This document shows, in pieces, positions 35,282 through 63,320 of a DNA stretch of 64,000 bases. The stretch is from Tetradesmus obliquus. Lineage: Eukaryota > Chlorophyta > Chlorophyceae > Sphaeropleales > Scenedesmaceae. Below the pieces are notes generated by a model. It saw only the letters and a list, made by a program, of their open reading frames with translations. It made no database searches and had not been told where the DNA came from. The position numbers and the translations under genes are program-made. The DNA is taken from assembly GCA_030272155.1 (NCBI GenBank), contig CP126205.1, positions 1,166,501-1,230,500 on the forward strand, read 5' to 3'. The stretch's first letter is position 1. Each line of letters opens with the position of its first letter.

Positions 35282-38200
35282 ATGGCAGGCCCTAGGTGGC
35301 AGAGCTGGGTCGGGGCCTTGCTGGTGTTCCCCCTTTTGTTGACTGCAGCACAAGCTGCTGTCTGCGATACAGGTTGCCAAGCACAGCAACGATCGTCTTT
35401 GACTGATCTGTATGCGGCCACCGGGGGCCGGGGCTGGCGGAGGCAGTCGGGATGGGACTCCGGGTCCCTGGATCATTGCAGCTGGTTTGGCGTGAGCTGC
35501 TGCGGCACGGATGGCATTCCTGATGCATCGGGTCCTCGATCTGCGGCCTGCCCGCTGCCTGGGGGCGTGGCCGGGCTGGACCTTGGCTTGAACAACCTGA
35601 CAGGTGCATGGCCTGCTGCTGCTCTGGCTGGGCTGTCAAGCTCCCTGGCATACATCAACCTGCGAGGCAACAGCCTTCAAGGGCGGTTGCCGGAGAGCAT
35701 CAGTGGCCTTCAGCAGCTGTCTGTGCTGTACATAGATGATGCAGGCCTCAGCGGGGCGCTTCCGGCTGGGCTTGGGCAGCTTGCAAACCTTACACAGCTC
35801 ACTGCGGCACGCAATGGATTCAGCGGTGCCTTACCAAGCAGCTTGGGGCAGCTACAGCGGCTGCGACGGTTGACTGTCAGCAGCAACGCCTTGACTGGGG
35901 CGTTTCCTGCAAGCTTGTTGGCTCTGCCGCAGCTGCAGCAGCTGGATGTGTTGAACAACCAACTGTCTGGGCAGCTGCCAGCTACAGCACCAGCTGGAGT
36001 GGACAGCAGCAGCAACACGCCGCTGGGAGCGTTGGGAGGTGAGCAGGAGCAGCAGCATGACATGTGTTGCAACGGATTGATGCAGTACCTGCAAGTGTTG
36101 AGCTGTCGGACAGAAGCCTGTTGTTCATCACTGAGGCACCTGCAGCATGCGTAAGCAAACCACTCTGTGCAGTAGCGTCAACAGCAGCCAGCACCCACTG
36201 CAAGCGTGTTTGCCGCATTTCAAGAAATGCAGCATGCAGCGTCACATACATGTTGTCTTGCATCCTTGCTCGCCGCTGTCAACCCATGCAGCCACTCACA
36301 GTGACATGCTGCCATTGTGTCAACGCGACTGCGCTTATTCCTGCCATCGCAGTGTCAAGAAATGAGATTCTGGAGGTCAGGCTTAGCAGCAATCAGCTCA
36401 GCGGCCCTCTGCCTGGCTGGCTGGCTGCTCTGCCTGTCATCCTGTTAGATGCTAGCAGCAACAAGCTCAGTGGCAGCCTGCCTGCAGCAGCGCTGGGCAG
36501 CAACCTGGTGCTGCAGGAGCTGCTGCTTGCAGGAAACAGGTTCAGCGGCAGCTTGAGTGCAGACACGTTCAGGTGGGTGCTGTTTGTGCAATGGACGGCA
36601 CTGGGAAAGAAATGGCGCAGCTGTAGCAGGTTTGATGGGCAGCCCATGCATGTGTTGCTTGCTACATCCAAACTTTGCCTATGCAGACACGTTCAGGTGG
36701 GGATGCTATTGAGTGGACGGCATGGAGCTGTAGTGGTGGCACAGGCTGCAGCAGGCATGGTTGGTAGCACATGCATGATGCTTGCTGCTTCCGAAGTTTG
36801 CCTGTGGATTTGTGCATGGCCGGAAGGTGTGCGTGAGGACCAGTGCTGTGCATCAACCCACAACCATGCTCCAAGGTAAGGCACACTGAACGTCCATCGG
36901 AGTGACGTGCAGCAGCCGTCGTTGGCTTGCTGCACCATGCCCTGGTGCACTGTTTGACTCTTGGTTGCTCTGGCTGCTGTGCTCTGCCTTGCATTTCTCT
37001 CAAATGCAGCGGCAACCTGCGCGTGATGGACTTGAGCAGCAACAGCCTCACAGGCAGCCTGCCAGCACCAGCAGCAGGCTCGCTGCAGCGGCTGGACCTG
37101 TCACACAATAACCTCACAGGGCAGCTGCCGCCTGACCTGGCGCAGCTGCCAGCGCTGAGGCAGCTGCAGCTGACAGGCAATGAGCTCGCGCCGATGCAAG
37201 GATTGCCGGCTGTGCTGCAGCTTGACAGGTGAACCACAGCCATACTCAACAAGCAACTAGAATGTTCATGCCTTGTTTTGTTGGGTGCGCCGTCGTGGGA
37301 TGTTAGCAGGTGCTGCTGACTCTCTGGTGCAGCAGCCAGCAGTGGGCAGAGGCCGGTTGCAGCTGGATTACTGCCGGCACACTGCAGAGCTGCAGCCACT
37401 GTGAACAACTGCTATCCTGCATCATCATCATCATCATCATCATAAAGTTACCCACCATCTGCTATCCTGCATGTTCAGGCATCTGTTTAGCAGGCTGTCT
37501 CTCTGTCAGCCGCTCAGCTGATGCAATCATTCCTGCCACTGCCTGCATACTGAGGCTGGGGTTGTGCTTGCTGTTGGTACTCTGTTGCTGCATATGTTTG
37601 CAGCTCTGCCGCTGCTGTGCCAGTCGATCCTGTAGGGCAGGCTGGGCTGCTGTGTCAGCCAGTAGTGCTCACAGGCAGCAGCAGCAGCAGCAGCAGCAGC
37701 AGCGGCCGTGCCACAGTGCAGCTGGGTCCAGCAGTGTACGGCTTTGAGGGCTGTTTCTGCAAGGCGCCGCTGGCTGCTGCAGTTGAGCAGCAGGGCGGGC
37801 GCACTGTGAGCATGACGTGCGTCGCGAAGCAGGTGCGTGGCTGGTGCAGCTGTTGACCGCAACTCTAGCAGCATTTGCATGCTCCTGTCGGATACATGCT
37901 TGCAGTGCATGCTGGGTGTAAGCTGGGTGCAAGTGGGCTGCCCCAGAGTTGTGGCAGCCTGCTGTGCTGGCATTGGCACACATGCAGCAGGGCATGTCAC
38001 CTATCTGCTGGTTGTCAGGCATAAACCCTTCAGCTTTGCTGTGCCAGCAGCCATTAAATGCCCACCTACTCTGCTGCTGCTGCCGCTGCTGCTCGTGTGT
38101 TGTGGCAATGTACCTGTGTGCACCAGGGCGCGCCGCTGGCAGCTGTGCTTGCTCCGCTGCTGTCAGTGACAGCAGTAGCGCTGGTGGCGCTGGCGTGTGT

Positions 38201-39375
38201 GGCTGCTGCGTGGCGCTGCGGGCTGGCTGGGCTGGTGCAGCGCATCAGCGTGGAGGCGAAGAAGAAGACGCCGCCAGGCACAGCAGCCAAGGACATCACA
38301 CTGGTGCTCACTGACGTGCAGGTGCGTATGTGTGCGTGACTGGCGCAGTTGTGCTGCGCTGCGACGTAGCTACAGCCATGCTGTGATGAGGCCTGTTGCA
38401 TGCACTTCATACGACGTGAAAAGGCAGGGCAGTGCGCAGATGCATTCAAGCGTTCTTCACTAATTTCTTTTTTTTCTTGCGCACCTCTTTTACTCCTGCA
38501 GGGCTCCACTGAGCTGTGGGAGTGGGATCAGCAGCTGGCCAGCGACGCGTTCAAAACGCACGACAGGGTTCTGCGGCAGTACATGACGCAGTTCTTCGGC
38601 TACGAGGTGTCCACCGAGGGTGATGCCTTCCTGGTGGCGTTCCACGAGCCGTTTGATGCGGTGGCGTGGTGCCTCTGCGTGCAGATGGCGCTGCACTGTG
38701 AGTGCCAGTTACAACCTGCCAGCAATTGCGTGTGTGCTGTGGCTTGCTTGCACTGCGTATGTCAGGGCAGGGGCGGTGTGCATGTGCGACTTGCCGTGGT
38801 GCCTCTGCAGGCAGGTGGCGTTTCATTGAGAGTGCTTTGGGTGCACGCATTTGGCGGTTGCAGTGACGGCCTTGAAGCAAGCAGGCAGCTGTGTGCATGT
38901 GTGGCTTTCCACAGGCTTCTTGATGTGGTGGCGTGGTGCCTCTGCGTGCAGATGGCGCTGCACTATGAGTGCCAGTTATATGTTCAACAATATGCAGCCG
39001 GCAGTAGCGAGTGTGGGGTTGCAGTGACTGCCTTGAAGCGCACAGGCGGCTGTTTGGCTTGCTTGCTTGCACAGCGCATGTCAGGGCAGGGGTGGTATGC
39101 GTGTGTGGCTGTTCGTTGTGCCTGTGCAAATGGCGCAGCACTGTGAGTGCCGGCAGTCGCAAGCAGCGTGAGGCTGAGAGTATGTTGTTTGATCACTGCT
39201 AGTAGTAAGTAGGCGTTGCCTACTTACTACTCTGCTTGACCTGGTGAGCTGTTGAAATGCATGCTGTGGGAAGGTTTTGCTGGGCAGTGACAGTATGTGG
39301 CTGCTCCCAGGGCTCTCACATGCTGCAAGCATCATGCCGTGCAGCTCACTGACAGTGCGAGTGCTGGGTCTGACT

Positions 39376-39436
<61 letters not shown>

Positions 39437-42400
39437 AGACGCCGAGTGGCCGGAGCCGCTGCTGATGCACAAGTCCACCTGCCTTGACACTGCCAGCACG
39501 CTCGAGCTGAAGCGGCGGCAGCGCCAGGACCGCTGGCAGACGCGCATGACGCGTGCAGTCGCAGGCGACGATGCGGCGGGGTCCAGCGGTTGGCAAGGCG
39601 GCCGCACTGCCAGCGCTGCGACAGGTGTTGGGGACGGTGCTGCTGCTGCCACCATGGCAGCTGCAGGTGCTGCTGGTGTGGCTGGGAATGAGGCTGACGG
39701 GCCTCTGGAGCATTTCCCAGATACGCTGCCGCCAGCGCCGCTGGTTGCTGTTGATCAGGACCCTGCTGCAGTGTATGAGGATGAGGAGGCGCTGCTGGGG
39801 CAGGGCCAGGGCAGCAGCAGCGACAATGCGCTGGAGGCGCGCATGGCTGTGGAGGGCACTGCGCAGGGCGGCCCGGGCGGCAAGGTGAGGCGGCTTGCTG
39901 GTGTGCGCGTGTGCGGCGGCTGTCGGTGTGGTAGCAGCTGTGGAGCATGTGCGTGCATTGGACACAATTTGCATTGGACACGATCGTGCTGGACACAATC
40001 TTGCAGCTCCTGTGATTTGCTGACAGCAGTGGGTTCATACGAACGAGGCCCGAGGAGGTGAACACAGGCTTAACGAAAGAGAGATCTCGAGTGGGAAGGA
40101 GGGGGGCTTGAGTGCTGTGTAGTGTGTGTTTTGTGGGCAAAAATTGAATGCCTTGTGGCCGAAGACGAGGGGTTACACGGTGTGCACAGGCAACTACGTT
40201 GCAATGAACACCCGAAAACGTGGAACGTCGCAGATGACTCAGCAAAACAGGCTGTCACTCAAGGAGACTCACCCCAGAAAGTCTCTGTGTGTGTAACTTG
40301 ACATATGGCCTTGCAGGCAAAGCCGTCAGCCACAGCACACGCAGTGTTGATGCTAAACAACGGTAGGACTAGCGTAAACAGTGTCAGTGACAGCAAGCTG
40401 CACTTTATGCAGTGCAGCGGGCGGGCTGAATCCCCAGAACAACACCCACCAGCAGAAACACAGCCTGACAGGCGGTGGCCTGAGGCGACAAACTGGGAAG
40501 AGAGAGCAGAGAACAAGCCAGCTGCTGCAAGGGCCGCACAACTACATGTCGCAGCAGCGATACGGCAACTCACAGCTCCTGCAAAGCAAGACAGCTAGCT
40601 CTGGCATGTCAGAAGCTCACAGAGAAAGCAAGTACATGCAGTGAGAAGAAGGCCATCACCGCCGCACCACACACAAACCATTGCCAAGCAACACAGTATG
40701 CCAGGCAATAAAAGGTTGGCGTGTGAGCAGCCGATTTCTATACCGTGACGGCACCCTAGCCGTAGCAGCAAAGTCCGCAAGCGCATCCCAAAAAGCACCT
40801 ACTGCTGCTCTCACAGCCACTTGTTCCACCAGCTGGGGTATCCCAAGGTCACCGGACACAGCCCACGCTGCCCTGCGGCCTTTCTCAAAGGCATGCACTG
40901 CTGCAAGACAGACCATGTCCCACACCAGTCGATGTACAGCGTTATGGGGGAACACGCCAACCATATAGCTCGGCACGGCAGTACAGCACCTGCCGGCAAC
41001 AAGTTGAACGCCCTTAGTTGACTTTCCACCTCACGCCGCACCGCCACAGCAACAGGACATGTCCAAAAATGATGCTCCACCCCAGGCCCTGCAGCAGAAC
41101 ACGCTGCACACGCAGCACTAGTCTGCATACGTTGAGCAGTAGGGAAAGCATCCAAGGCCAAGCGCCACGCCGCTTCCTTGTACATGTTAGCCACCCGTAC
41201 CTGCCACCAACGAGACAACACCGACTGCACTGCAGGCAGGCTGACTGCCATCGGCAGGGCATCCAGGGCTCTAACCCGATTAAGTAAGGCAGCATGGCGG
41301 GGCGCTATGGCATCAAGCGCAGCAAGACGTTGTAGCTTCGTGGCATCAGCAACCTGCAGATCAGCCAAACGTATAAAACCATCTGCCCCTGGCCGCTGCC
41401 AACCCAAATCAGCACTCAACTGTTCGCGCGCAATCAAAATGTCCACAGGAGAAACAGAGTATAGTTGTGCAACGCTCGTACCGGCAGCTTGGGCAGCTGC
41501 CAGGTGCGCGCGTGCTGCAGCAAGCCACACAGACGGCACAAACGACAGCAGCAATGCCTTGTGGCTGAAGAAGAGGGGTTACACGGTGTGCACAGGCAAC
41601 TCCGTTGCAACGAACACCCGAAAATCTGGAACGTCGCAGATGACTCAGCAAAACAGGCTGTCACTCAAGCAGACCCACCCCAGAAAGTCTCGCTGTGTAA
41701 CTTGACATATGGCCTTGCAGGCAAAGCCGTCGGTCACAGCACACGCAGTATTGATGCTAAACAAAGGCAGGACTAGTGTAAACAGTGTCAGTGACAGCAA
41801 GCTGCACTTTATGCAGTGCAGCGGGCGGGCTGAACCCACAGAACAACACCCACCAAGCAGCAACACAGCCTGGCAGGCGGTGGTCTGAGGCGACAAACTG
41901 GGGAGAGAGAGCAGAGGACAAACCAGCTGCTGCAAGGGCCTTGTGCCTTGTGGAGAGAGAGGTCTGTTACAGGGGTGGGCAAGCTATCGCCCTAGAGCGA
42001 GTCACTTGCCCCTCTTTCAGCTCACATATCATGAGAACCCGATATCAAGCCACAAGATGCAACCAAAGTAATACTCCAGAGGCATCTTGCAGCCCCTACC
42101 TCCCCATAAACCAACAAGTACATGCAGTGCAGCATGTGCGAAGTGCAGCACGAAAAGCAGCAGGGTGCTCAAAGCACAGGGCACAAAACGCACAAGGGAA
42201 GGCATGCATGGTCCAAACAGCAAGCGGGATGCACAATGGTGCTGCTTACCATAGGTGTTTGGCATGATTGCACCAAGGCACTGCTGTACACACCAGACTG
42301 CAGCAAGCAGGAGCACACGGGACCGACAGGAGACACTGCATGTGACATGCAAACTAAGGTGCTACTGCTTCTGCAATCCTCATGGCTGACAAGCACAGAA

Positions 42401-45400
42401 GCACGCAATGCGACACACAGAGCTGGAAAATCAAGCACAGTGACACACGACATGCAACATGGCCTTGCCAGAAAGTGGAAATTGGACAACTACTGACAGC
42501 ACATCATGTAAAAGCAGGAAGGTCAACCAGAGCGGGGCGCCAGTACAATGCGCAGCTGTGCTGGATCAGAACACAAGAACGGGTGATCTCCAGGCACCGC
42601 AACACGCCAATGAGCCGGCGCAGCCTCCAATGCCACAAAATCAGCAAGCAATTCCCAAAACCGCAATTCCCAAAACCGCAAAGCAAACCGCAAACTGTGG
42701 GAGAGAGAGGTCTATTACAGGGGTGGGCAAGCTATCGCCCTAGAGCGAGTCAACTGTGGGAGAGAGGTCTGTTACAGGGGTGGGCAAGCTATCGCCCTAG
42801 AGCGAGTCACTTGCCCCTCTTTCAGCTCACATATCATGAGAACCCGATAGCAAGCCACAAGATGCAACCAAAGTAAAACTCCAGAGGCAACTTGCAGCCC
42901 CTACCTCCCCATAAACCAACAAGTACATGCAGTGCAGCATGTGCGAAGTGCAGCACGAAAAGCAGCAGGGTGCTCAAAGCACAGGGCACAAAACGCACAA
43001 GGGAAGGCAGGCATGGTCCAAACAGCAAGCGGGATGCACAGTGGTGCTGCTTACCATAGGTGTTCGGCATGATTGCACCAAGGCACTGCTGTACACACCA
43101 GACTGCAGCAAGCAGGAGCACGCGGGACCGACAGGAGACACTGCATGTGACATGCAAACTAAGGTGCTACTGCTTCTGCAATCCTCATGGCTGACAAGCA
43201 CAGAAGCACGCAATGCGACACACATAGCTGATAAATCAAGCACAGTGACACACAACATGCAACATGGCCTTGCCAGAAAGTGGAAATTGGACAACTACTG
43301 ACAGCACATCATGTAAAAGCAGAAAGGTCAACCAGAGCGGGGCGCCAGTACAATGCGCAACTGTGCTGGATCAGATCGCAAGAACGGGTGATCTCCAGGC
43401 ACCGCAACACGCCAATGAGCCGGCGCAGCCTCCATTGCCACAAAATCAGCAAGCAATTCCCAAAACCGCAAAACCGCCTGCTGCTTCGCCTCCTTTAACA
43501 TCTGCGCTAGTAGTTGCTGTCGCTGTTGTTGTTGTTGCAGCAGCTGCTGCTGCCTACGCTGCTCAACCAGCTGGTTATGCTGTTGCTGCGCAGCAGTGAG
43601 AGCTGCAGGCTGAAACACATCTGTAATAGGTACCTGCCATTGCGGCGGCGGCGCAGACGGCCGCGGCGCAGCAGGCGCGGGCGGCGGAATGTGCAGCGTG
43701 TTAGCCTGCCGTCGGCCAACATCCATGGCATTCAGAGCAGCTAAACAAATAACCCCCCAAACACCCTGGTGGAGCCGCTTAGGGCCGGGAGGCCGCTGCA
43801 TCAACCAGACATGCCGCATAGCAAGCGGCGGGCGGCCTGCAGCCCGCGTACACCATGTTGCAGGCAACGCAGACAGCAGGCTGTCAATCACCGCTACCGC
43901 AACTGGGCACTCCCAAAAATGGTGCACCAGACCAGGGCACGCAGCGCCACACATGCATGTATCATGCTGCTGGTGCATGCGCTGCGACGTAGGCAGGCCA
44001 TCCATGATCAGCCGCCAATACGTCTCCTTGTACGCATTATCCCAGCGCATCTTCCATAGTGCGCCCTGGGCGGCCGCCACACATTGCAAACCACGAGTCA
44101 ACGCCGCGGGCGGGGCACCCGCACCGATCGCAACACTGACAAACCTAGTGCGCCGCTCCTGGCGCTCAGCACGCAGGGGACCAAGCTGCAATGAGGTAGC
44201 TTCACGAACAGACAATTGCGCAACAGACACCGTCTTGCCGCGATGATTCCGCCAGCCTAGCCGCGCCACCAACATGGCCTCAACATGCTGCTCTGCTGCA
44301 GAAGGCACACATGGCGGGTCTGGCACAGCTGCAGGCGGCCAGGGCCGGTCTGCTGCAGGATGCCGCACAACAGCCAAGGCAGCCCGATGCCACGGCATGG
44401 GCAACAAGTTAACCAAGTCTGTCAAATCTGCCGATTCGTTGTCTGCATTGCTGAAGTTGGAGCCGTACGGCAGCAATGGGTGTGGCAGCTGCTGCCGTGC
44501 AGCATGCTGGATCACATGCCAAGCGCGACAGAGATCGGCCACAGTGCGGATGCGCGGCCGACACTTGCCGCCAGAACATGCATGTGGCCCGCGCACAGAG
44601 GGCACGGGATGCATTTGCAGCCCACCGGGCACAAACCCAACCATTGCTTGCAAAAAGGGTTAGCAAAGACAGGAGCCAAACTACACCAAGCCCCGGGCTG
44701 CAGCACCGGCGCCTCCTGTGGCGGGTTCGAAAGGTGATCGCATGGTTCGGCGGTCACTTGGCGATGTTGCAGTTGTTGGGCATCCAACACACCACCAGCT
44801 ACTTCGAGCTGCAGTCCTCCGTGGTGTAGGCGGTTAGCATACGAGGTTCTCACCCTCGCGACCCGGGTTCGAGTCCCGGCGGGGGAAGCTGTTTTGCTCC
44901 TTTGCCTGTGCCCCCCCGTTACCCCTTTGTTCTTCTCCGCCCCTCGCTGGACCTGATCAGGAAATGCCTTCTGTTTAGATGAACGCCTTCTCCTCACACA
45001 GCTGTGCGCTGCCGTAACATTGATTCAAAGCATGTACGTTGTGCAATAACAAACCAGGCTGGGCCTGACAGCAGGCGGGTTGGGCCTGACATCCCAGGCA
45101 GTCTCATGTCATACTGCCGCCTCATCTGAAAGGCCTGTAGGTTACCGCACAGCTCACTTTCCAATGTCCTTCTGCGCCCGCCCGCTCTTCCACGATATGT
45201 TTTGTGGCCGGCAAGGATGTGCTGTTTCGCGGCCTGCGCGTGCGCATCAGCATCGCCACTGGCCTTGCCGGCTTTTTGGAAAGCCTGTTGTCTGGGGGTG
45301 TGTTTCTGTCCAAGTCTCCGCCTGCCTGCGCTTCCCTTCACTCATATTCATGGGCCTTCAAGGGCGTGCTGTTCCGCGGCCTGCGCAGACAGCAGACAGG

Positions 45401-48400
45401 CTGGGCCCAACACGTTCAAACCTCAGTGCAGACGTGTGATGTAGTTGTTCCATTGTCTGAACAGCCTGTTGTCTTCACCGCTGCCTGCAGGCCGGCAAGG
45501 TTGTGCTGTTCCGCGGACTGCGTGTGCGCATGAGCATCGCTACGGGCGGCGTGGACTCCATCCGCATGCACAGCGTCACGCAGCGCGCAGAGTACGTTGG
45601 GGAGGTGCTGCACAAGGTGCAGGCGGTCGGGGAGACGCCGCACGGAGGCCAGGTGGGTGCAGTGCTGCTGCTGGAGCACTCTGCTTGATGTGTTGAGTTG
45701 CGTTGCATGGCAGCATGGTGAGTGTGTGTCAGCCCCACAGCCGAGCTTTGTTGCACAGCTCGCGGCGTCACCTGTCACTCCGTGCTTCAAACGTTGGGTC
45801 GTACAGTTCACACCGCAATTCCCACTGAACTTGCCACCTCGTAAACTTCACGCTTCAGATCATGATGGACTCGGAGAGCTTCCGTGGCATCCATGCACGG
45901 CTGCCGGAGCTGGGCGGTGCTGTGCTGGAGGCCACGCAGAAGCTGCTGCGCAGCAACAGCGCGGCGGGGCCCAGCGCACAAGAGATCGTGGAGATGTTCA
46001 GCGCACCGCCCCACGCAGAACACACAGACCGTGAGCATACTCTGGGAGTGGCTGGTTGCCTTGATTGTGGTTGGTGTGGCAGCAGAAGCCAGGGCGCAGG
46101 AGAGTGTTGTGATGTTCTCCGCACCACGCGAAGTGCACCGACCGCGAGTTTACTTCGTGATCACTGGTTTCTGTGTAGCTGGACGTACGGGACATATGGG
46201 GTTGCCACCTGGAACATCACATGCTGCTGCTGCTGCTGGCTGCTGCTGTTTTGACTTTTGACCCATCACCTTTTTTCTTACCGCCTTGCTTCGCCAACCG
46301 CAGGCCTGCAGCCCAGCGTGTTCCTTGGCCGCAGCAGCCCCACAAATGTGCTGCAGCCTGGGGACCAGGCCAGCACAGATGGCCGCACGCAGCACAGCAC
46401 AGTCACAATGCGCAAGGATACACACGGGCCCAGCCAGGCTGATGCTGCTGCGGCTTCTGCAGGTGCGGGTGCGGGGTCGGCAACAGCGCTGTGGCATTAT
46501 GATGGGATCCTTGTGCGTCTTTGTTTTTAAATGGTTTACACTGTGTTTAGGAATCGATGCATTGGTGTACTGCGTTCTTGCATCCGATTGTGTGCTGGCT
46601 GCCTGGATGGTATGTTCACCGGCAGCAGCACACATGGAAACTTCAACAACAAACAGTTGGGTGCAGCGAGCACGCCACTGGCGTTCTCCTGCATGCTTGC
46701 TTCACTCAAAACCAGCATTCCTTGTGTTCTGCTTAGCAAGCCCTTCTAGCTGCTTCTTGAGAGCTGCTGCGGAGCATCCAGGATCTCTTCTGACTGCATC
46801 CACTGTGCCCTATTGTATATGTTGCACCAATCAGTCACGTCCTGCGCGCGAGGCTGCTGCTGCCAGCTTTGGCGGCCATGCAGAATCATGTAGAAGAGCT
46901 TCGTGCAGATCTGCTGAGGAGCAGAGGTATAGCCTCACCTGACTTCATTCGCTGTGTCCTGCCGTATACCTGCACATCCAGGTGCTGCACGCGAGGCTGC
47001 TGCTGCCAGCTGTGTGGCAGCCACGCGGCGCTTCTATGTTCTGGTGCAGATATGCTGCGGAGCATCCAGGATCTCACCTGACTTCGTATCACTGTGTCCC
47101 GCCCTGTACTTCCCACCATCCAGGTGCTGCGCAAGAGGCTGCTGCTGCTAGCTTTGTGGCGGCCACGCAGAAGCAGCAGCTGGGGCGCTGGTCGTGTGGC
47201 GAGCAGGGCGTGCCAGGCAGCGGCGACATCGAGCAGGGCAACATCAGCAGCTCGCCACGGCCGCCCAGGGCGCAGCGAGGGTGAGGGGCACGTGCTGTTT
47301 CATGCAGCTGCTTGCATACCTGGCCCATATATATTGTCGACAGCCGCAGCTGCGTGGATGCCGGTTGCTGCACCAGGCGGCACACCTGCTGGGCCTGCGT
47401 TGTGATGATCACTCCGCGTCAACCCAGCCTGCTGCCCTGCAATGTTTGCTGTATCCCCCATCGTATGCCTTTGATACGTGCAGGCTGCTGCAGGCGGCCC
47501 ACTTGCTGGGCTTGCGGGAGGATGACAGCATCTGCAGGTTGCGTGATGATGACTCAGTCTGCATCAGCCTACCCTTTTGCCCTGCACTGTCTGCTGTACT
47601 CCTGCCTGGTGTGTTCTTGATTCACTGCAGGCTGCTGTACCCGGCGGTCCATCTGCTGGGCCTGCGTGATGACGACTCAGTCTGCAGCGAAATGGAGGGT
47701 CTCCACGGCGCCAACGGCACCTTCACTGAGTGCTGTACACCTGCCTTATGCCTGCCACTGACTTGCAGGCTGCTGCACCAGGCAGCGCACCTGCTGGGCC
47801 TGCGTGATGACGATTCAGTCTGCAGCGAAATGGAGGGCCTCCACGGTGCCAACGGCACCTTCACTGAGTGCGGCGCAGCCACCACCAGCAGCGCCCAAGC
47901 CTCCCCCCGCAGCAGCCCCCTGATCGGCGGCACGTCGCCAGCCGCCGCCGGTGGCCGATCGAGCTCGGCGGCTGGCGGCGGGCTGGGCGGCGTGCTGCGG
48001 GAGGTGCATGGCTGGGCGGTGAATGCGGCGGCGGCTGCGCCTGGCGGGCTGCTGGCGAAGGGTGGCGGTGGTGCTGGAGGCAGGGGCAGGAGAAGGCGCA
48101 ATGAGGCGTGGGGTGGTGCGAGGCGGCGCAGCAGCTTGTCATATGGCGTGATGGTGATCGACATGGGCGTGCACCAGCTGAGCGGGCTGCCGCAGAAGGT
48201 CAACCTGGTGCAGGTGGGTGGGCTGGCAGGGGTCGCTGTGCAACAGCAGATGCGCATGGATATGGCAGTTGTGAAGCGTCAAGGATGTGGTTGATCAACA
48301 CTGCTGATGGTGTGAGTGCTTGCCCCTGCTGTCCACTGGCCAGCCACTTGCAATGAACTCCCATTCATGCCCTAAGATCGATGCGTCACAAACACATGTT

Positions 48401-51400
48401 ACATGTTCCTGCACGCGCAGGTGATGCCTTGTGGGCTTGAGGACCGCGCGCGCTTCTTCCCGCGCCTTGACAGCCTGCGCCAGGAGACCCCCACACTTTT
48501 ATACATGCAATTCACACATCTCACTCCCACTCCTGCCGTCAGATCGACGCATCACAAACAAGACATGTTTGTAATGTGTGCAGGTGATGCCTTGTGGGCT
48601 TGAGGACCGCGCGCGCTTCTTCCCGCGCCTGGACAGTTTGCGCCAGGAGACCCCCGGCTACTTTGACGCGCCGGCAGCAGGGCTGGTGCCACTTGGGCCG
48701 GGCAGCGGCAACACGGCGTTGGACATGCCTGCAGTGACCATCGTGTTCTGCACCATCGACAAGTGAGTGCTGGGGCGCTGTATGAGGGCTTGCGCGCATT
48801 GCACTGGTCCGTCCTTCGCTGGAATCACATTCATCGTGCTCTGCGTAATTGCTGGATATGTGAAGTGTGCAATGGGTGGTGGTGCGGCTTGTGCAGCTGT
48901 GTGAAACCCTCTCTCATGGTCTGCTGTGGTGTGAGTCACCTCTTGGCATGCTGCAAGTACTGCGAGACTGCGGAGGCCAGCGGCGAGGCCGCTGAGGTAG
49001 TGCTCGAGCTGTACGTTGTAACACGCAAACATCCCGCCCCCTGGCTCATGGTGTGACACTGCACCTCCTGCGGCGTGCTGCAGGTACTGCGAGATTGTCG
49101 AAGCCAATTACGAGGCTGCCGAGCTGCAATGCTACCATTCTGGACCCCCCTCGCATGGTGTGCTGACCTGTGGGCTGTGTTGCGCTGTGCTGCAGGTACT
49201 GCGAGATTGTCGAAGCCAGCCGTGAAGCCGCTGAGCTGCCGTGTCACATGCAACTGCACTCCACTAAACCTCCCATCTGTGTATGGCATGCTGCAGGTAC
49301 TGCGAGATTGTCGAGGCCAGCCGCGAGGCTGCTGAGCTGGCGTTGGAGCTGTGCATTGCAACTTGCAGGACAAGCAGTCACCTTGTGGCCGGCCGTTGTG
49401 TGCTGTGGTATGCTGTGCTGCAGGTACTGTGAGATCGTGGAGGCCAGTCGTGAAGCTGCTGAGCTGGCGCTGGAGCTGTACAGCGACGCGGTGCGCTGGC
49501 TGCTGCTGGTGGGCGGCGGCTACGAGTGCCAGGAGGCTGAGGGCACCTTCATGGTTGCTTTCTCAAGTGCTGACGTGGCCATTGAGTGGTGCCTGATGGT
49601 GCAGCAGGTGCTGCGAGACATGAGCTGGCCGGCCAGGTGGGCTGAGGGCTCAGGGCTGCCGCTCACTCACTGTAACAGCATATGCAGGGGTAATAATGTG
49701 CTGTGGTGCACTGGCGAGCGGAACATTGGCATACAACATGCACTCGCCTCAAAATGCTGTATTCAGTTGCACATGTAATATGCAGCACTGGTGCGGCGCC
49801 GCCCATGCGTGGAGCGGTATGCGTGAGGTCATGGCACTGACCTCACACCGCTGTGGCTGCCGGCCGCTGCCTGGCAATGCTTACCACCTTGCTGCACTCT
49901 GCTGCAGCGTGCTGGAGCTGCCGACGTGTGAGGAGGAGCACAGCATGCACGGCATGTCCCGGGCCACTGTGGCTTCCTTACAGTATGTGATATCTTTGCT
50001 GTGTTGCACCCCATTTCCGTGCTGCAGTGTGCTGGAGCTGCCGACATGTGAGGAGGAGCGCGACATGCACGGCAACGTGATGTTCCGCGGCCCGCGCGTG
50101 AAGATGGGCATCTACTGCGGCACACCTACACGTGTCATCCCGCACACCACCACGGGGCGCGCTGACTACTTTGGGCCTGTGGTGAGTGTCTCGGCATGAG
50201 AACTCATGCACTGCCTGATGTACTTTGGATTGTGTTTGCATCTTGCGCATTAGCCCACACACCGCTATGGGGCGCACAGACTACTTTGGGACTGTGCTGA
50301 GTGCACTTTGATCACCTTGAAGCTCATTAATCTTCTCAAAACCCCAGCTCAACTTGCATGCTGTGCGGCATCCCACACACCACGGGGCGTGCGGACTACG
50401 TTGCGCCGTGGCATCCTCTTGCGCCGCATGTCAATCGCGCCACGCGCTACTGCCACGCCGCCGCGCGCGGCGGCCAGGTGCTGGTGCACGCACTGGCCCG
50501 TCATTGCAGCCGGCTGTGCCGCCTGCGCTGCAACGCTGCTGGTGAACTGCGCGCGCGCGACTGCCACTACTACTGCCATGCTGCCGCCCATGGCGGCCAG
50601 GTCTGTGCCCCAGGAGTTCATGTGCTCAACGGTTGAGTAATGCATGTGTCCAATTCTGTTTCGTTGCAGGTCAACCGCGGGACGCGCTTCTGCCGCGCCG
50701 CCGCGAAGCGGCCAGGCGCTGGTGCACACACTCAACCTTTTACTCTTGCAAATGTGTATTCCTCTTTGTTCTCAGGTCAACCGCGCGGCGCGCTACTGCC
50801 ACACTGCAGCGCGTGGCGGCCAGGTGCAAAGTGCACCCACGAGTCCCTCTGTACACTGCATCGTGTCCTGCTGTGTCGTCTGTGCTGCACTGCTTGCTGC
50901 AGGTCAATCGTGCTGCGCGCTACTGCCATGCTGCAGCGCGCGGCGGCCAAGTCCTCGTGCCCAAGGAGCTCATGTGCTCAACAATTATGTTGAGATTTGT
51001 CCATCTCTGCTTCTTTGCAGGTGAACCGCGCGGCGCGCTACTGCCATGCTGCAGCTCGCGGCGGCCAGGTTCCAGCACCCAAGGAGCTCATGTGCGAGGT
51101 CATCAGCAAGTCACTGACATTAGGCCTGCGCTGCGCCTCCTGTATTCCCTGCAGGTCAATCGTGCTGCGCGCTACTGCCACGCCGCAGCGCGCGGCGGCC
51201 AAGTCCTCGTGCCCAAGGAGCTCATGTGCGAGGTCATCAGCAAGTGGGTGCTGATCGACCCGAGCGAGCTCATGCAGAGTGACAGGCTGCTGGAGTTAGT
51301 TGCTTACTTTGATGAGGAGCGGCGGCTGTGGCCCTGGATGTTTAAGAGGAGGGCTCACTGGGAGGTGCCTGTGCCACCACCTTGGTACAGCCAGATGTCG

Positions 51401-53835: not shown

Positions 53836-53867
<32 letters not shown>

Positions 53868-54622
53868 AGTCAGCAGCAATGGCTGACGCTGGCGACGCAG
53901 CAGCAGCAGCAGCAGCAGCGCTGGACGGCTCAAACGGGCTGTCAAACTGGCCTGGCGGCCAGCGCACTGCGCTTGACAGCTACTGCGGCCTGCCAGAGAT
54001 CGAGCCGCTGCCAGATGCTGAAGTGATAGAGAGCTTGCGTATGTCTGTGCCGCAGCGCACGCACCGGCCCAGTAATCTGAGCACAATGACTGGCGTGGCT
54101 GACAGTGTGGCTGGCTTTGAGGGGCCTGGCATCAGCAGCATGTGTGCTGACATCATGCGGGGGCGCTGGCTGTGGATCGCGGAGCTGCTGGTGCATGACC
54201 TGGGCCAGTTCAGGTGCGGCTTTTGGTGGATTTCAACCGTTTTGAAACACAAACCAACTCATCACAATCACAAAAACAACAAAATCGCATTGGCAATTGT
54301 GCTCGTCATAGGTTTTTTTGTGTTGTCAACAGTGACTGGCTGTGGCTGACAGTGTGGCTGGCTTTGAGGGGCCTGGCATCAGCAGCATGTGTGCTGACAT
54401 CATGCGGGGGCGCTGGCTGTGGATTGGGGAGCTGCTGGTGCACGACCTGGGCCAGTTCAGGTGCGGCTGCTGCTGGTTGTGCTTTGTTGGCTTCGGTCGC
54501 CTTTCCACGTGTTTACTCTTGCGGCGCTAAACTCATTCTGGTGTATGCACGCACCTGTGGTGTGTAGCATCTAGAGCTCCAGGCCTCCAGCTCTCATTGG
54601 AAGCATGCACACTTGCTGAAAC

Positions 54623-54696
<74 letters not shown>

Positions 54697-55677
54697 AGGT
54701 TCAAGGGCGTTGCCGGCGTGCATTCGATTGTGAGTGTCACCAGTGAGGAGCTGGGCGGCCGCACCTTCCCCACCACCATCCGCAGGGGCAAGGGCGAGCA
54801 GGTCAGGCTGGGGCGCGGCCTGCTGGCGCTCGTGCAGGTGAGAACTTCACAGTGGGAGGGAAGTGCTTCATGGTGTGAAGTGTGGCGTGAACTTTATGGG
54901 GCAAGGGCGAGCTGGTCAGGCTGGGGCGCGGCCTGCTTCGCTCGTGCAGGTGAAAATTTCACAGTGGGAGGGAAGTGCTTCATGGTGTGAAGTGTGGCGT
55001 GAACTTTATGGGGCAAGGGCGAGCTGGTCAGGCTGGGGCGCGGCCTGCTGGAGCTCGTGCAGGTGAGAACTTTGCACTGTGAAAGAAGGTGTGGAAAAAC
55101 TTCACACCAGGCTTCAGGGGTGGCTGTCCTTTGCTGTTGTGTCCTTGGGTGACTCAGCTGTGTTGAGCATGCTGACGCGTGCAAAGGCTGGCTTACGTGT
55201 GCCGGTTGCTGAGGTGCTTGCGGAGTGAGTCGGTAGCTATATGGGTTTGCTGGCTAGCTGCTGGGCCCTTTACTCACGCGCTTTATGCGGACGCCCCTGC
55301 TGCTGCTGCTGCTGCTGCTGCAGATGCTGGCCAGCCCCCGAGGCTCCACCTGGCTGGGGCCCTACCAGGGGCAGCAGCTGCTGCAGAACGCCACGCCTTC
55401 AGTGCTGCAGCAGCAGCAGCAGCAGCAGCAGCTGCAGCAGCAGCAGCAGCTGCAGCAGCAGCAGCACTTTGCTGGCGGCGGCGCAGTGTGCCAGACATGC
55501 AACAGCAGCTTGGGGCTTGGCCGCCGCAGATCAGGCGTGCCTCCAATTGACCTGGAGCTGCTGCAGCAGCAGCAGCAGCAGCTGCAGCAAGGCCTGGGAA
55601 GCCAAGCCTGGGGGGCAGGGGCAGGAGTGGGAACGCCGCATTCTGCTGGCTTTGGGTTTGGGCCGGCTGGAGCAGCC

Positions 55678-55714
<37 letters not shown>

Positions 55715-56910: not shown

Positions 56911-59720
56911 GTTGTAAGTGGCAGGCAGCACTGAGTGCAGTTGCTGTTTGGGGTTGCTGTGTGGGGCTGATGTTGGTGAGAAGCTCGCAGGATGACATGC
57001 TTAACATGTCTTATTCATGCAGTGTTGTGGCATTGCGTTGGCAGTTGCTTGGCAACCTTAGGCTGCCAGATCGGCAGCACGCGGCTTGGCTTTTACTTGG
57101 GAGTGCTGTTGTTTAGGTTTTTGCTTGTCTTGAGTGGTGGAAGAGCAGCCCAGTAGCCAGGCTTGAAAGCAGGGCCGCCTGCAGCTGTGGTAATGGTGCG
57201 TCACAGAGCCAGGCTTGGTTGGCTTCGGTTTACTTTTTGCAGGAGCTGCTGCGATACAGCATGAGCTCCTGTGCACTGCCTTGCAGTCGTTGCTCTCAAA
57301 GGCTCCTTTACTGGCCGTTTTTCATGGCTTATCGTCGCTGCTGCGCGCGGTTTCTAACTGTGGATCGGCAGCTGCGGTTGCCAGACTGCTGCTGGACTTG
57401 CATGGCTGAGCCAGGCACTGCGGAATGCAATGCGGGATCTGTTGTTGCAACCATATTCCATGGCCACCTGGCATGGCAGCAGAGCTGGAGGAATATGTGA
57501 CTGTTACTGTGATCCTCGAGCTGAGCTTCTGCCTATGTGCCTATGTGCCTTTGACAAAAGGCCATTGCTTGTTAGGCCTCGCAGTCTGCAGATGTGCTGC
57601 ACGCATGTTCTTGCTTTCCAGTCTTTGAGTTGAGATCTTGTTTATGAGGTGCGGCCACCAGGCTGTTGCATAAGCATCCCCGCAGTCTGCAGATGTGCTG
57701 CACGCTTGCTCTTGCTGCTGTCCAGTCTCTGATGCTTGCCTTGAGTCCCTTCTGCTGAGCCTTGGCCACCACGCGGCTGCATGACATGCAGAAAGGGCGC
57801 CGCAGCGTGGCGATCTGCGCTGGTCTTCTTTGCTGCCGGTCACACGATTGCAAAACAGATTGCCTGTTTGCTGTGACACCCAGTGCCACCTGTACGCACT
57901 GCCTCTGAACTGCTCGCCTGCAGCAGGTTGGTGTGGCCCGCCAGCTGTTTCCGCTGTGTGGTACGCTTGCCATAGGTGTGTGTGTGTAGCAGCAACGGGT
58001 TCATCACCTGTGCTGCCTGGTTGCGTAGCTTCCGCAGCATTGGTGGAAGGCACGGACACAGGATCTTCTTTTCTATAGCTACTCAGCAGGCTGCGTTGTG
58101 GCTCAGGTTCATTTATGCATGTGTGTTTGTTTGTCACTGCTGCCGCTGCTACCCCTGCATGTATGCATGTTAGCAGCACTGCTGATGCGGCAATTGTCAG
58201 AGCACCTCCCCGCCCTTGCGCCTGTGCATCTGCCTGTCTCTGCAGCTGTGGCGCTGTGCATGCATGCAATCTGTCCTGATGCTGTCTTTCCTGCACGCAC
58301 CACAAGGGCGTAACTGTAGCGCTGGGACGACATGCTACAGCGGTGCACGCTTGATACAGCTTTGGCGGAACAGATTAGATGCTGGGGAAGCACTGCTTTG
58401 CTGTGCTGGGCTAGGCTCGCCTGGTTGTGCACTCAGCAGCGCAGCTGCACAGCGCACATCTGCAGCTCGGCACCCAGATAGCATATGCGCGCTTCAACGA
58501 TTGAACAGGATCCGTTGTTGTGTTGGCGGCAGTTGCACTCCAGAGCTTTCCCACTGCGCCTTGAATAGAGTTGATGGTGTATTGCCTCCTGACCGGGTTT
58601 CCGTGCGCCTGTGGATTTGCGCTTTCTCTCCCTGCTCGGGCTGTTTGCTTCCGATGCTTTGTTGGCTGTGCTGGCGTATCTCACCTAGCTATTACGCAGG
58701 ATACGTGACCCGGAATGCACGTTGGGGTCGCAGGGGGAGGACGCAATTGCTGCTGTGTGCAGCCCTTGCTGCTGTATGCTGGGATTGCGGCCTTGGGTTG
58801 CAGCAACCTTATGGCGCTTGCATTGCGCGCATCATCACTGCTGCTGCTGCTGGCAGCCTGCGGTTGCACTTGGGAAGCTTGCATGCTTGCTTTGCATCAG
58901 CCGATTGCCGCGCTTCGTATGGTGGGAAAAGTGATCCGCTTGCTCGGCCTGGTTTGTGTTCACAGCACTTGCAGGACTTCCCCGATTGAGCTGCGACGTC
59001 AGCTTTGTGCAGTGTGTTGTGTCAGCAGGTGCCCCCGACTGCTGCTGCACATGTCCATGCATTTGCGCAGCCTTGTGCCACATAGCATGTCTGTTGCTGC
59101 TTTGCTGGGTGCAGAGCCGCCTTCCTGTGCTGCCGGTGGGCTTGGGTTGCAGGGTTTTGCTTGTTGTCCGGTGTGAGCCGCTGCTGCTGACATGCAGACA
59201 AACGATGGCCCAGGCGCACCAGGCCACGATTTGTCCTGCTACCCCCTCCGATGCACTGCAGTGCAGCACTGAACTCGGGTTGTAAAGGAGCGCACACCGT
59301 GATGAACTGCAGCAAACAGGCTGTCAGTCATGCGCACACGGTGCCACGCAGTGCACTGCACTCAGTGCAGTACAGTGACCGTGCAGTACAGTCACTGCAC
59401 TGACTGGCCCACAAACGCAGCTGCCTGGCCGAGAAGGACCTTAGTAACGAACTTTGTGCAGATGGAGAAGCTGTTTAGGTTGACTGCGGTCCCACTGGCT
59501 CGTTCGACAGCAGTGAGTGCTGCAGCAGGGCAGCAGATCAGCTGATCTGAGGGTGACTCAACCTCGCATGTGCTGACGCAGACACCAGTTCGACATCACC
59601 CATTGGACTTGAAACTTTAATTTAGACGTATCGGAGTTGTGAACATTGTAACTTTGCACGGTGTATGCGTCAGATCACCTAGTAGCCTTCGAACGCTGGT
59701 CACGGCACCGGCAGAACACC
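56911..59720. other. Intergenic or unresolved region
   Basis: No supported gene. A 257-codon plus-strand frame at 58216-58989 is Cys/Leu-rich without motifs. Around 57580-57790 there are tandem repeats with ~101 and ~117 bp periods (GCAGTCTGCAGATGTGCTGC at 57581 and 57682; GGCCACCA blocks at about 57652 and 57765). They look like the exon-edge arrays but no exon is known here; they could mark a minus-strand gene. A GCAGTACAGT direct repeat with partial inverted symmetry is near 59370-59400. Confidence 0.4.
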
Positions 59721-60389
59721 ATGCAGCGAGCATACGTGCGGACGAGCAGCCTAGCCCGCAGGTTCTTCGAAGAAGACTTTCCCGATGCCGAACAAATGCC
59801 TCTAATGCTGTCTCCACGCGAGCAGCAGGCCTACGATCGGCTTGTCAGGCCTTTATTAGACTTGCTGAGCTCACCCCACGACACAGCTGCCCTGCTGGCA
59901 GCAGTCCAGCAATTGATCAGCATCTTCTATGCAGACCCTCAGCAATACGAGCTCTCGCGCTCGGCTGCCGAGTACATTCAGGCGCCTGGGGCGTTATGCC
60001 TGATTGATGCAGCAGGTGCAGCAGCAGTACCACCAGCATCCAGGGCTTTCTTTGCTGCTCTGGAAGCACACGACCCAGCAGTGTTCAAGGAGCTCTTGCA
60101 GGAAGACATCTGGAGGCGTGGAATCGCAAACCACATCGCTGATGCCGCCTTGATGCCACCAAGCTTGCTGCTGGATGCACACCCTGCTGTTTCAGCAGCA
60201 CAGCCGTGCCCTGCTGACTCAGACAAGCTGCTGCTGCCAGAAGATGCTGCTTACACCCTAAACCGCGTCGCGTCATCTTCACCAGCAGCATCAGCAGTGT
60301 ACCGGCCTTTTGAATTTCAAGTGCAACTGGCTCGCGGCATCTCCGGCACCAGCAGCAGCGTGCACGCATCGGCGCAGACCACTTCAGAT

Positions 60390-60423
<34 letters not shown>

Positions 60424-60854
60424 CAGCAGCAGCGGCGGCAGAGGCGGCAGCAGCAGCAGCGCCCAGCATCCTTAAGCGTGCTGTGTGGAGGCGCCACCTG
60501 ACACGCAGCTGCAGCCACTACCTGGCACCACTGCTGGGCAGGGATGGGGCCGGCACTGTGCTGCTCACAGGTGAGCCACACAGTCATGCAACCGAGACGG
60601 AATCACGTTCTTCATTTGATATGTCCGGCTTAATGGTGGGTTGTGGACAGAGATTGCGCGCGCACTGTGCTGCTCACAGGTAAGCCACTGGTGTGGCAAA
60701 CGTCTGGACAGCTGCAGGTGAACAGGTTCCAGCACCGTACCCGCTGCTGCCTGCTTACACATGTGCTGCTGCTGCTGCTGCTGTTGCCGCTGGTGCTGCT
60801 GCCGCTGCTGGTTCTTGATGCAGGTGCCTCACTTGCTTGTACAGTGAAGGGCTT

Positions 60855-60904
<50 letters not shown>

Positions 60905-62078
60905 CGCTAGCTTTTGTTGGCTACAGCAGTGCAGCTGCAGCACAGCTGGCCCTGGATGGCTGCCTACTGGAAGTGCTGACACGGTGGGTGCCTTGCTGTA
61001 CAAAGGGTTGCATGTAACACCCTTTGCAATAGCACACTGCAACTTAATGCATACTATCATTGCTAGAGGGGCCCACGGCACCCATGGCTGCTTCAACCTC
61101 ATATCTTCAGATGTGCATTGCTGTGATCCCTGTCTTTATGACAGCATGCACAGCTCTGTTCCCTGCAGAGTCCTTCTTCTACAAAGTGCTTATTTTTATT
61201 ATTTCTACAAAGTGCTCGCAGCAGCATCGAGTCCACTGCAGTGTGGTCTGGTCCGGCGGTGATTAACAAAATTACACATCCTGCTTCGTAAAGTCTTGTT
61301 GTTGTACTGTTATTCCAGGTACTTCAAACGGCACCCAGCACCTGTCACTGATGCACATGGCAGGCCAGTGCAGCCCTTGGCAGTTGCTACAGCCCACCAC
61401 CTACTGCTGCTGCTGCCGGAGCCCACACAGCTACAGCTGCCAGCAGCAATGCTGCTGGATGCTGCTGCGTTGGGAGCAGCAGTAGACGCAGGTGCATTCC
61501 ATGGCCCTGCAGCAGCAGCCGCTGCTGCTGCTGTGCCGCAGAATGCACTGGCTGGCCCAGTAGCAGCAGCAGCAGCAGCAGGGCCAGGAGCAGCAGCAGG
61601 GTTCAAGGACGTGCTGATCAGCTTTGACTTGGCCCTGCACCCTAGTGTTGCAGCCCTGCTGCTAGCTGCTGCTGCTGACAGCCCGCTTGCTGCGTTTGCA
61701 TATGACGGGGATGACATGCACACACTGCCCAGTACAGTGAGGGCTGTAGCAAGCGGGGCTGTGCTGCTGAACCCTGCGGCTGTTGCACACGGCTCCCCTT
61801 GCTTTGGTGATGCTGCACCAGCCGGCGAAGCAGCAGCAGCAGGCAGGGGTAGAGCGGAGAGTGCCAGTCAGGCAGCGGCAGCAGCAGCAACAGGTGGGTT
61901 CCTGTGCAATGCAGTCGCACCTGAAGCTGCGGCAGCAGCAGCAAGGGAGGCAGCGGCAGCAGCAGCAATGGGCTGGCAGCCGCTGCTGCTGCTGCCTCGA
62001 TGGCAGCAGCACCTGTGCACTGCGGCATTGGCGCTGCATCTTCCCGCATCATTCAAGAATGGCAGCAGGGAGCATGGT

Positions 62079-62112
<34 letters not shown>

Positions 62113-62237
62113 TGCAGCAGCTTGTTGCTGATGTGGCGGGTGATGTGCTGCTGCAGCAGCTGCTGGTGGCCGATGTGGGCTGCCTGCTGAGCAGCATAGG
62201 CAGCTCTCAGCTGCTGGCTGCTTTGCTGGACTGCTGG

Positions 62238-62274
<37 letters not shown>

Positions 62275-62921
62275 GATTCGACAGCGGCAATGGTGTTAGT
62301 GAGGACGCTGCTTGGCAGCTGGCAGTGCGTGCTGGCACTCAGTGGTGGCAGCGCTTGCAGAAGCTAGCTGGGCATGCAGCAGGTGCTGTGCCACCACAGC
62401 AGCAGCAGCAGCAGCAGCAGAAGCAGAAGCAGCACAGTGTTGGTGACTGGCTTGATCTGGCAGCGCCTCCTGCAGGGCTGCTGCCAGCACCAGCAGGTCA
62501 CAGGTGGGCCTCAACAACCGCCACAACAGCAGCGGCAGCAGCAGCAGCAGCAGCAGCAAAGACAAGCCGGCAAGTTCAGCAGCAGCAGCAGCAGGGAGTG
62601 CAAAACGGTTTATCACCTGCTAGCCTCATGTCCGACCCTGCACTGCTGCGGTCACTGCTGGATCACAGCTGTCAGCAGCAGCAGCAGCAGCAGCAGTCGA
62701 TGCGTGTTCGGCAGTGCATGCTGCAGCAGCTGAGTAGAGATCATGGCTGGGTGTGGGGCTGCGTGGAGCGTGCGCCTACAGCAACACCAGCACGTGGACA
62801 GCAGCAGCAGCGGCAGCAGCAGCTGCTGCCGGCGGCTGTTGGTGCTGCTGCTGCTGCCGGGTGGTGGGCTGGGCCAGTCATGCGCGGCTCTGCATTAGAG
62901 GGCAGCGTGCTTGATCAGTAG
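59721..62921 (+). CDS. Unknown 870-residue protein, 3 exons
   Basis: Exons 59721-60570, 60824-60983 and 61319-62921 agree in phase. The N-terminal 220 residues are helical and well mixed (SSLARRFFEEDFPDAEQMP, PREQQAYDRLVRPLLDLL, YADPQQYELSRSAAEYIQ). After an Ala run come a basic stretch (LKRAVWRRHLTRSCSHYL), a poly-Ser run in exon 2, then YFKRHPAPVTDAHGRPVQPL, FKDVLISFDLALHPSVAALL and several poly-Gln/poly-Ala linkers. No family is recognised. The donor of exon 1 (CTCACAG|GTGAGC) is duplicated 109 bp downstream as CTCACAG|GTAAGC, and both later exons start with GT after the AG. An upstream GTG-initiated extension to 59661 is possible but the ATG at 59721 is preferred. Confidence 0.75.
60555..60690 (+). 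repeat. Exon-edge duplication at the 3' end of exon 1 of the 59.7-kb gene
   Basis: ACTGTGCTGCTCACAGGT occurs at 60555 and 60664 (109 bp). The two donors are GTGAGC and GTAAGC. Use of the second would add about 37 codons' worth of sequence and change the phase. Confidence 0.92.
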
Positions 62922-63320
62922 GAGCCCCATGAACCATGCATCAATAGTTATCAGCGTAGGGGCTGCATGGTGTGCGAACAAATATGTGCAGCACCTGTTG
63001 CCAATTGGCGAGCGAGCAGCTCCAGGGGCACTAGAGGGCAGCGTGCTTGATCAGTAGGAGTCCCATGAGCAGTTTCATAGTAGGGACTGCATGGTTGGCA
63101 AAGAAGTACGCGCAGCACTTGTTGCCAAGTAGTTGTTCCGAGTCTACTGGCAGTGCTGAGGCCTTTGGGATGGATGCCTCCTGCGGGCAGCGTGCTTGAC
63201 AGTTCAAATCCCATGAATCCTGCATCAATACTTCTCAACGTAGCAGTAGCGGCTGCATGGTGTGCGAACAGATATGTGCAGCACCTTGTGGTAATTGGTA
63301 AGCAGGTGCTCAGCATGGCA
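62896..63320 (+). repeat. Tandem duplication of the stop-codon region of the 59.7-kb gene
   Basis: The last codons and stop (GGCAGCGTGCTTGATCAGTAG) at 62901 recur at 63036 and, degenerately, at 63186 (135 and 150 bp). Each is followed by CCCATGAAxC and a GCTGCATGGTGTGCGAACA block. Confidence 0.92.

Follow-up and report, generated by a model that had tools for sequence, protein, structure and literature searches.

Probable local duplications at coding-sequence boundaries in the green alga Tetradesmus obliquus

A 64,000-nucleotide stretch of the genome of the green alga Tetradesmus obliquus (contig CP126205.1, positions 1,166,501 to 1,230,500; C15:1166501-1230500 in our numbering) raises the question of why its exon edges appear to stutter. 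A first-pass annotation of this stretch, hereafter the window, had noted that exon edges in its second half are accompanied by tandem copies of themselves that include the splice site, and had proposed a genome-level process anchored on splice junctions in unrelated genes. We analyzed these arrays in the window and in a sample of the assembly to which it belongs (104,662,953 bases in 17 contigs). The arrays were found to be widespread and concentrated at exon edges. The boundary of the coding sequence, rather than the splice junction as such, seems to be their anchor, and the mature message apparently lacks the additional copies.

We searched the whole window by self-BLAST for direct-repeat pairs at offsets of 50-800 bp. 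This search uncovered 32 pairs, 27 of them past 36.5 kb, and a looser search gave 21 clusters past 36 kb. Fifteen clusters were accepted as exon-edge-type arrays, and six (at 41952, 51434, 52431, 55552, 60009, and 62400) were put aside because they are rich in CAG or consist of pairs at large offsets. Runs of (CAG)n/(CTG)n are very numerous over the whole window. The exon-edge copies described earlier are real, with about 15 arrays of 2 to 6-7 copies and a smallest offset of 101-166 bp in all but one, where it is 246. Inspection by eye also bore out the earlier statement on which copy is complete. In acceptor-type arrays almost every copy contains ...CAG / exon head and the last alone continues into the exon, and in donor-type arrays the copies retain exon tail / GT... 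and the first alone is joined to the whole exon. The arrays, and one intron that they largely make up, are as follows.

36558..36806, + strand: donor-edge array, 2 copies, period 124, exon end ~36572
38634..39151, + strand: donor-edge array, several copies, smallest offset 130, exon end ~38697, cyclase-like FDAVAWCLCVQMALH
45206..45547, + strand: acceptor-edge array, ~3 copies, exon start ~45491
46752..47175, + strand: acceptor-edge array, ~3 copies, offset 146, exon start ~47124
47359..47871, + strand: acceptor-edge array, 4 copies, spacing 117, 150, 138; last copy runs into the exon, to ~48213
48357..48655, + strand: acceptor-edge pair, offset 166, exon start ~48584
48937..49482, + strand: acceptor-edge array, 5 copies, spacing 127, 112, 101, 127; exon start ~49424
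49900..50074, + strand: acceptor-edge pair, offset 120, 91% identical, exon start ~50028
50136..50411, + strand: donor-edge array, 3 copies of the exon end ...GACTACTTTGGGCCTGTG
50413..51245, + strand: acceptor-edge array, real exon head (51155), 5 decoy heads, and one partial head near 50570
50182..51154, + strand: intron made largely of the arrays 50136..50411 and 50413..51245
54083..54476, + strand: two copies, offset 246, 95% identical, splice-like edges inside
54785..55088, + strand: contiguous tandem array, 3 copies of 112-113 bp, donor-like CAG/GTGAGA or CAG/GTGAAA in the copies
57577..57732, strand unassigned: pair, offset 101, 85%; neither gene nor exon edge identified
60535..60688, + strand: donor-edge pair, offset 109, exon end ~60570
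62892..63298, strand unassigned: 3 copies, offsets 136 and 285; exon edge not identified

Two gene names given earlier held up less well. The label "cyclase" is based on Pfam matches below the cut-off (20.1 and 17.9 bits against 21.9) together with cyclase-like homologs, and a "Nudix-like" identity was not recovered, with no Pfam family on the six nearby open reading frames (ORFs) tried.

Outside the window we surveyed 20 further 10-kb stretches with fixed coordinates. The sequence analyzed for arrays came to 234.5 kb in all, 28 kb of it from the window, which had been picked for the feature. Arrays were present in 17 of the 20 stretches at the working threshold (none was found in L012, L022, or L023), and pairs in 14 of the 20 at the strict threshold. 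In total, 94 arrays were identified, with smallest offsets peaking at 110-130 bp and lying within 95-155 bp in 58 cases. Near pairs, at offsets of 40-800, numbered 193, compared with 8 and 2 at the control offsets of 2000-2760 and 4000-4760. The identity of the best pair had a median of 87% and ran from 74 to 97% (5th-95th percentile). The genes that bear arrays are unrelated and include those for glutamate-cysteine ligase, a ketoacyl synthase, a kinesin, a UBA protein, and the D1 protease. This supports the proposal of a genome-level process in unrelated genes. The further claim that both strands are affected is supported by minus-strand genes in the sampled loci and is not shown by the window itself.

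Splice sites were modelled with a home-made gene finder trained on exons recognised by homology. Long ORFs alone had not separated coding from non-coding sequence, and a first self-trained gene model collapsed into micro-exons and was discarded in favor of a second. On the D1 protease gene the finder recovered all seven exons and joined the protein exactly at five of the six introns; one acceptor was ~9 nt off, with the loss of three residues. Among 112 confident introns a copy spans 18 donors and 20 acceptors, and 30 introns have at least one such copy. The window is above average, with a spanning copy at 14 of 42 modelled splice sites versus 23 of 182 elsewhere.

Array density, expressed per kb of places able to hold a 120-bp duplication, was 1.63 at exon edges (45 in 27.6 kb), 0.17 within introns only (7 in 41.8 kb), and 0.18 outside genes (22 in 121 kb). 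Without the window the values were 1.44 (33 in 22.9), 0.19 (7 in 37.4), and 0.16 (19 in 118). Equal density away from splice sites, which the first-pass annotation had named as the result that would speak against it, was thus not what the sample gave. We also shifted the arrays at random. Edges were touched by 45 of 88 arrays, compared with a mean of 21.7 (sd 3.6, maximum 33 in 1000 shifts, z ~6.5); without the window the figures were 33 of 68 and 15.8 (sd 3.0, maximum 27), and stricter exon sets gave 43 versus 20.0 and 37 versus 15.8. For another 14 of the 88 the overlap is with an exon but includes no counted junction: six reach an exon edge that is terminal or unpaired, and the other eight, all rich in triplet runs (fraction 0.14-0.36), are interior. 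Of the exon-intron pairs, 56 cross the junction, and in 15 one member lies entirely within the exon; by our own reading, 10 of the latter begin or end at the exon edge. We found 63 exon-edge/copy pairs and counted 59: three that came from antisense gene models within arrays of the window were dropped, as was a row with an offset of zero. In these 59 measured pairs the repeated block holds the junction inside it or at its edge.

Stop codons were affected as well. A copy spans the stop codon in 3 of 13 terminal exons (glutamate-cysteine ligase, the minus-strand gene of L010, and L018), compared with 37 of 224 splice sites, on small numbers and with a slightly looser criterion for the stops. Stop codons are thus spanned about as often as splice sites, which is why the coding boundary seems to be the anchor. 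Of the earlier "anchored on splice junctions", the excess at exon edges stands, and the junction as such is not supported. Instability of CTG runs was considered as a cause and rejected, since arrays occur at 3 of 27 acceptors with an upstream run and at 16 of 85 without (p = 0.56).

The kinesin gene (C2, L033) provides a fresh case. Its exon head GDVIVSLANKESHIPYRNSKLTWL is present in seven near-identical tandem copies, 126-144 bp apart, so that six copies of the acceptor and pyrimidine tract lie upstream of the real acceptor. The array is a plain tandem duplication of the pyrimidine tract, the CAG, and ~80 nt of exon. We observed that one frame is open throughout it (L033 715-1875, reverse complement; 387 residues), and read-through would add repeated peptides.

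Evidence on whether such copies are spliced out came from proteins. Translated, the exons of L032 give the D1 protease of PDB 1fc6/1fc7; over partly overlapping queries of 89, 127, and 211 residues there are 2 differences in all. We take that structure to be from Scenedesmus (now Tetradesmus) obliquus. An array is present in one of the six introns of this gene. The gene has two versions of the head of exon 6, the second being the copy in intron 5, and the protein has one, so the extra copy is removed at the protein level, with the caveat that the crystallised strain may lack it. P0001, an apparently transcript-derived protein of a relative (89% identity over 74% of the query), has single copies across two array sites of the window. 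In glutamate-cysteine ligase, the GCS2 domain is contiguous once the copies are omitted.

We next consider what the copies are. No pair among 166 array entries showed similarity between loci at 1e-6, so the copies are gene-specific, most of them 95-165 bp apart; no sequence is common to different loci, as a mobile element would require, and this agrees with the earlier statement that they are unlike introners. Ungapped identity is ~0.85 on the exon side of acceptors and at least 0.9 just inside donors, falling to ~0.6 within 10-15 nt on the intron side. Similarity on the intron side extends 10 nt or less in 16 of the 59 pairs, and the sharp drop at the splice site is partly real and partly an effect of indels, so that it is given no weight here. 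The copies are not coding, their indels not being multiples of three in 19 of 22 cases. The copies are also partial and so do not correspond to mutually exclusive tandem exons, which are whole and open. A paralog was considered as a candidate donor of copies, since one decoy head, d3, is closer to the paralogous locus L005 (90% over 52 nt) than the real exon is (74% over 69), but the match ends at the splice site.

On these grounds we consider it probable that the arrays are exon-linked local duplications, and that those at coding edges survive because splicing or the 3' untranslated region hides the extra copy. Each array would be a local duplication of host DNA across a boundary of the coding sequence, mostly a splice junction. 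A repair or replication process acting preferentially in or near coding exons would duplicate ~50-130 bp, either where they stand or through an insertion templated nearby that brings in some unrelated sequence; offset-break repair (PMC8355091) and locally templated end joining are candidate enzymologies. Duplications fully within an exon would be lost to selection. Those that cross an edge would survive, since the outermost copy still gives an intact edge and the extra copy would leave with the intron or stay in the 3' untranslated region. The repeats could then recombine to arrays of up to seven, decay as non-coding DNA, and lengthen introns.

Several observations weigh against this account. 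It does not explain why duplication should prefer exons. In 45 of the 59 pairs the similar stretch makes up less than 80% of the period, although many copies are 90-98% identical, which is unlike plain tandem duplication; the earlier word "tandem" holds for the 14 near-contiguous pairs (at least 80% of the period) and not for these 45. In a strict set of 39 of the 63 pairs, hand-picked for plausible gene models, the differences between exon and copy lean towards synonymous changes beyond what a neutral copy of today's exon would show. Changed codons were non-synonymous in 97 of 208 cases (0.47) versus ~0.62 in neutral simulation, and 143 of 250 differences (0.57) fell at third codon positions versus 0.44 expected. 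This synonymous excess could be read as the sign of a template that was copied after it had diverged as a coding allele. No splice site is spanned in the genes of L007 (0/14), L021 (0/14), or L023 (0/18), in sharp contrast to L010 (7/16), which suggested that duplication, or its survival, is very uneven among genes. P0001 leaves the query just after GRADYFGPVV, at the most stuttered intron of the window, so splicing of that intron is not confirmed by it. The gene finder itself miscalled some copies as exons, for example window 51021-51098, which is also a warning for gene annotation.

The simplest alternative is that tandem duplication happens at random everywhere and selection alone clears the exons, the anchoring being a matter of geometry in short introns and of easier detection of copies of conserved exons. 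Some arrays are indeed plain tandem inside introns or outside genes (L019 3505, L018 1549, L025 9302), and the spanned stop codons fit this alternative as well. Artificial duplications were planted to measure detection (80 trials per cell). At 20% divergence per copy, 0.60 were detected at edges, 0.20 in introns, and 0.25 outside genes, a 2.4- to 3-fold advantage for edges. At 3-13% divergence per copy, however, detection was roughly equal (0.80-0.90 at edges, 0.76-0.90 in introns, and 0.89-0.95 outside genes), and the median identity of the arrays is 87%. Random duplication predicts equal densities, while the observed edge ratio is ~9 and the shift test gave the z noted above. We therefore regard it as unlikely. 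Function for the copies, as alternative exon heads or tails or as selected decoy splice sites, is very improbable. Decoys do retain AG at 27 of 28 acceptors and GT at 24 of 31 donors, and the synonymous excess points the same way. In the strict set, though, the retention of AG (17/18) and GT (17/21) is much like that of the dinucleotides next to them (0.79 and 0.75), so selection on decoy splice sites was rejected for want of a clear excess; the frame-breaking indels speak against coding selection, and the copies are only parts of exons. Hardest of all to credit is a mobile element or introner family, or an assembly artefact. In one survey the lineages with introners were mainly fast-evolving ones, green algae among them (PMC9860276), but nothing is similar between loci here, and the spread of best-pair identity is unexpected for misassembly.

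A further possibility, compatible with exon-linked duplication and somewhat doubtful to us, is that introns are born and expanded at stuttered sites and that the arrays mark where duplication has lately produced an intron. The lengthening of introns is already part of the account of exon-linked duplication: introns with arrays (n=36) have a median length of 452 bp, versus 281 bp for the others (n=76; p = 2.8e-5), and the mean intron of T. obliquus is 462 bp, versus 230-302 in four other algae, in the gene models of PMC5966456. The arrays are thus a concrete candidate reason for the long introns reported in this alga. The intron 50182-51154 contains two extra copies of the upstream exon tail and five of the downstream exon head; near 50368-50482 a copy of the one is ~19 nt from a copy of the other, which makes a near-contiguous exon-exon copy. 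The paralog L005 (C4) reads straight through the site of this intron, as do P0008 and P0010, machine-called ORFs from other contigs that are putative orthologs. Its absence from the paralog, and probably from the two relatives that these ORFs represent, suggested that it is probably lineage-specific, which, from sequence comparison, would point to intron gain. Elsewhere in this exon, P0008 and P0010 seem to part from the common sequence, a hint that intron positions may shift there. Against intron birth, it is drawn from a single intron, five of the six D1 protease introns give no sign of it, and the sequence after the donor of 50182-51154 is unlike the start of the next exon, contrary to a simple AGGT model. 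For exon-exon copies in general, the threshold was reached by 34 of the 112 introns and also by ~7% of mismatched controls, many matches being CAG-rich, and we use the window intron alone, third by score among the matches listed. An AGGT or recursive-splicing origin of the arrays was dropped as well, since several arrays start with bases other than the CAG/GT of many heads. We tentatively entertain, as a conjecture with a little more to recommend it than intron birth as such, that copies of exon edges are how this alga lengthens its introns and at times makes new ones, such duplications being tolerated since splicing takes out the extra copy. Introns like 50182-51154 would then be young and still in formation, the exon preference would come from breaks or copying tied to exons, and the synonymous excess from copies of diverged alleles. 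If this were true, exon-derived sequence would continually be turned into intron.

Other repeats were observed in the window. Between 1785 and 22402 there are near-identical ORFs ~7.5 kb apart, for example 10122-10922 and 17599-18399, and an ORF starting KGMVNPEIKAKRMDSS lies at both 1785-2378 and 21809-22402; this suggests a large duplicated element, possibly viral or transposon-derived. Between LRR/cyclase-like exons, the region 40147-43059 has long high-identity repeat pairs at offsets of 805 and 1404-1406. It also has an ORF that matches a reverse-transcriptase zinc-binding family (PF13966) weakly, below the cut-off. A tRNA-Glu gene (anticodon ctc) is located on the + strand at 44815-44887.

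If the 23 of 182 modelled splice sites that carry a boundary-crossing copy outside the window are representative, this genome could serve as a natural laboratory for the lengthening and origin of introns, and would also bear on how the spliceosome ignores intact decoys and on whether exons attract duplication. Boundary-crossing duplications are, to our knowledge, known as single cases only, and among the matches listed in open-licence literature (titles and abstract openings) there was no description of exon-edge arrays in Tetradesmus.

The earlier view that no named class fits was nevertheless too strong. A tandem genomic duplication across an intron-exon boundary has been described for one gene, potato RdRp (Ma et al. 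2016, PMC4974935), and is the nearest published event known to us. There, as here, the duplicated segment spans an existing splice junction, and most of the extra potato copy is spliced out; unlike that single gene, a good share of the genes sampled here are affected, with up to seven copies, many non-contiguous, and with stop codons spanned. A 2012 review (PMC3443670) states that, of the ways proposed for introns to be gained, tandem duplication alone has been demonstrated in vivo. The AGGT model of Rogers and Hellsten, known to us through that review (which cites Hellsten 2011 and Gao & Lynch 2009), likewise builds an intron from duplicated exon sequence, but it runs the intron from one AGGT to the next, whereas in 50182-51154, the only intron inspected for this, the order is the reverse, with the copies of the exon tail on the donor side and those of the exon head on the acceptor side. 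Daphnia neo-introns share direct repeats, intron lengthening, and repeated rounds with the arrays: direct repeats from staggered breaks are thought to lengthen them, and 55 of 90 newly gained introns have internal repeats (PMC4202315). Those introns are newly gained, while here the repeats are pieces of exon edge and lie in introns at large. Breaks with complementary 3' overhangs yield small tandem duplications (PMC8355091, citing work in rice by Vaughn & Bennetzen 2014) and offer plausible enzymology for short local duplications, although the insertions there are short (<100 bp) and the passages covered give no preference for coding edges. Introners, too, have a large effect on introns and count green algae among their hosts, but they form families common to several genes (PMC9860276), while the copies described here are specific to the host gene. 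Boundary-crossing duplication is thus already known, and what differs here is its frequency, its multiplicity, its preference for edges, and its mixture of tandem and non-contiguous copies.

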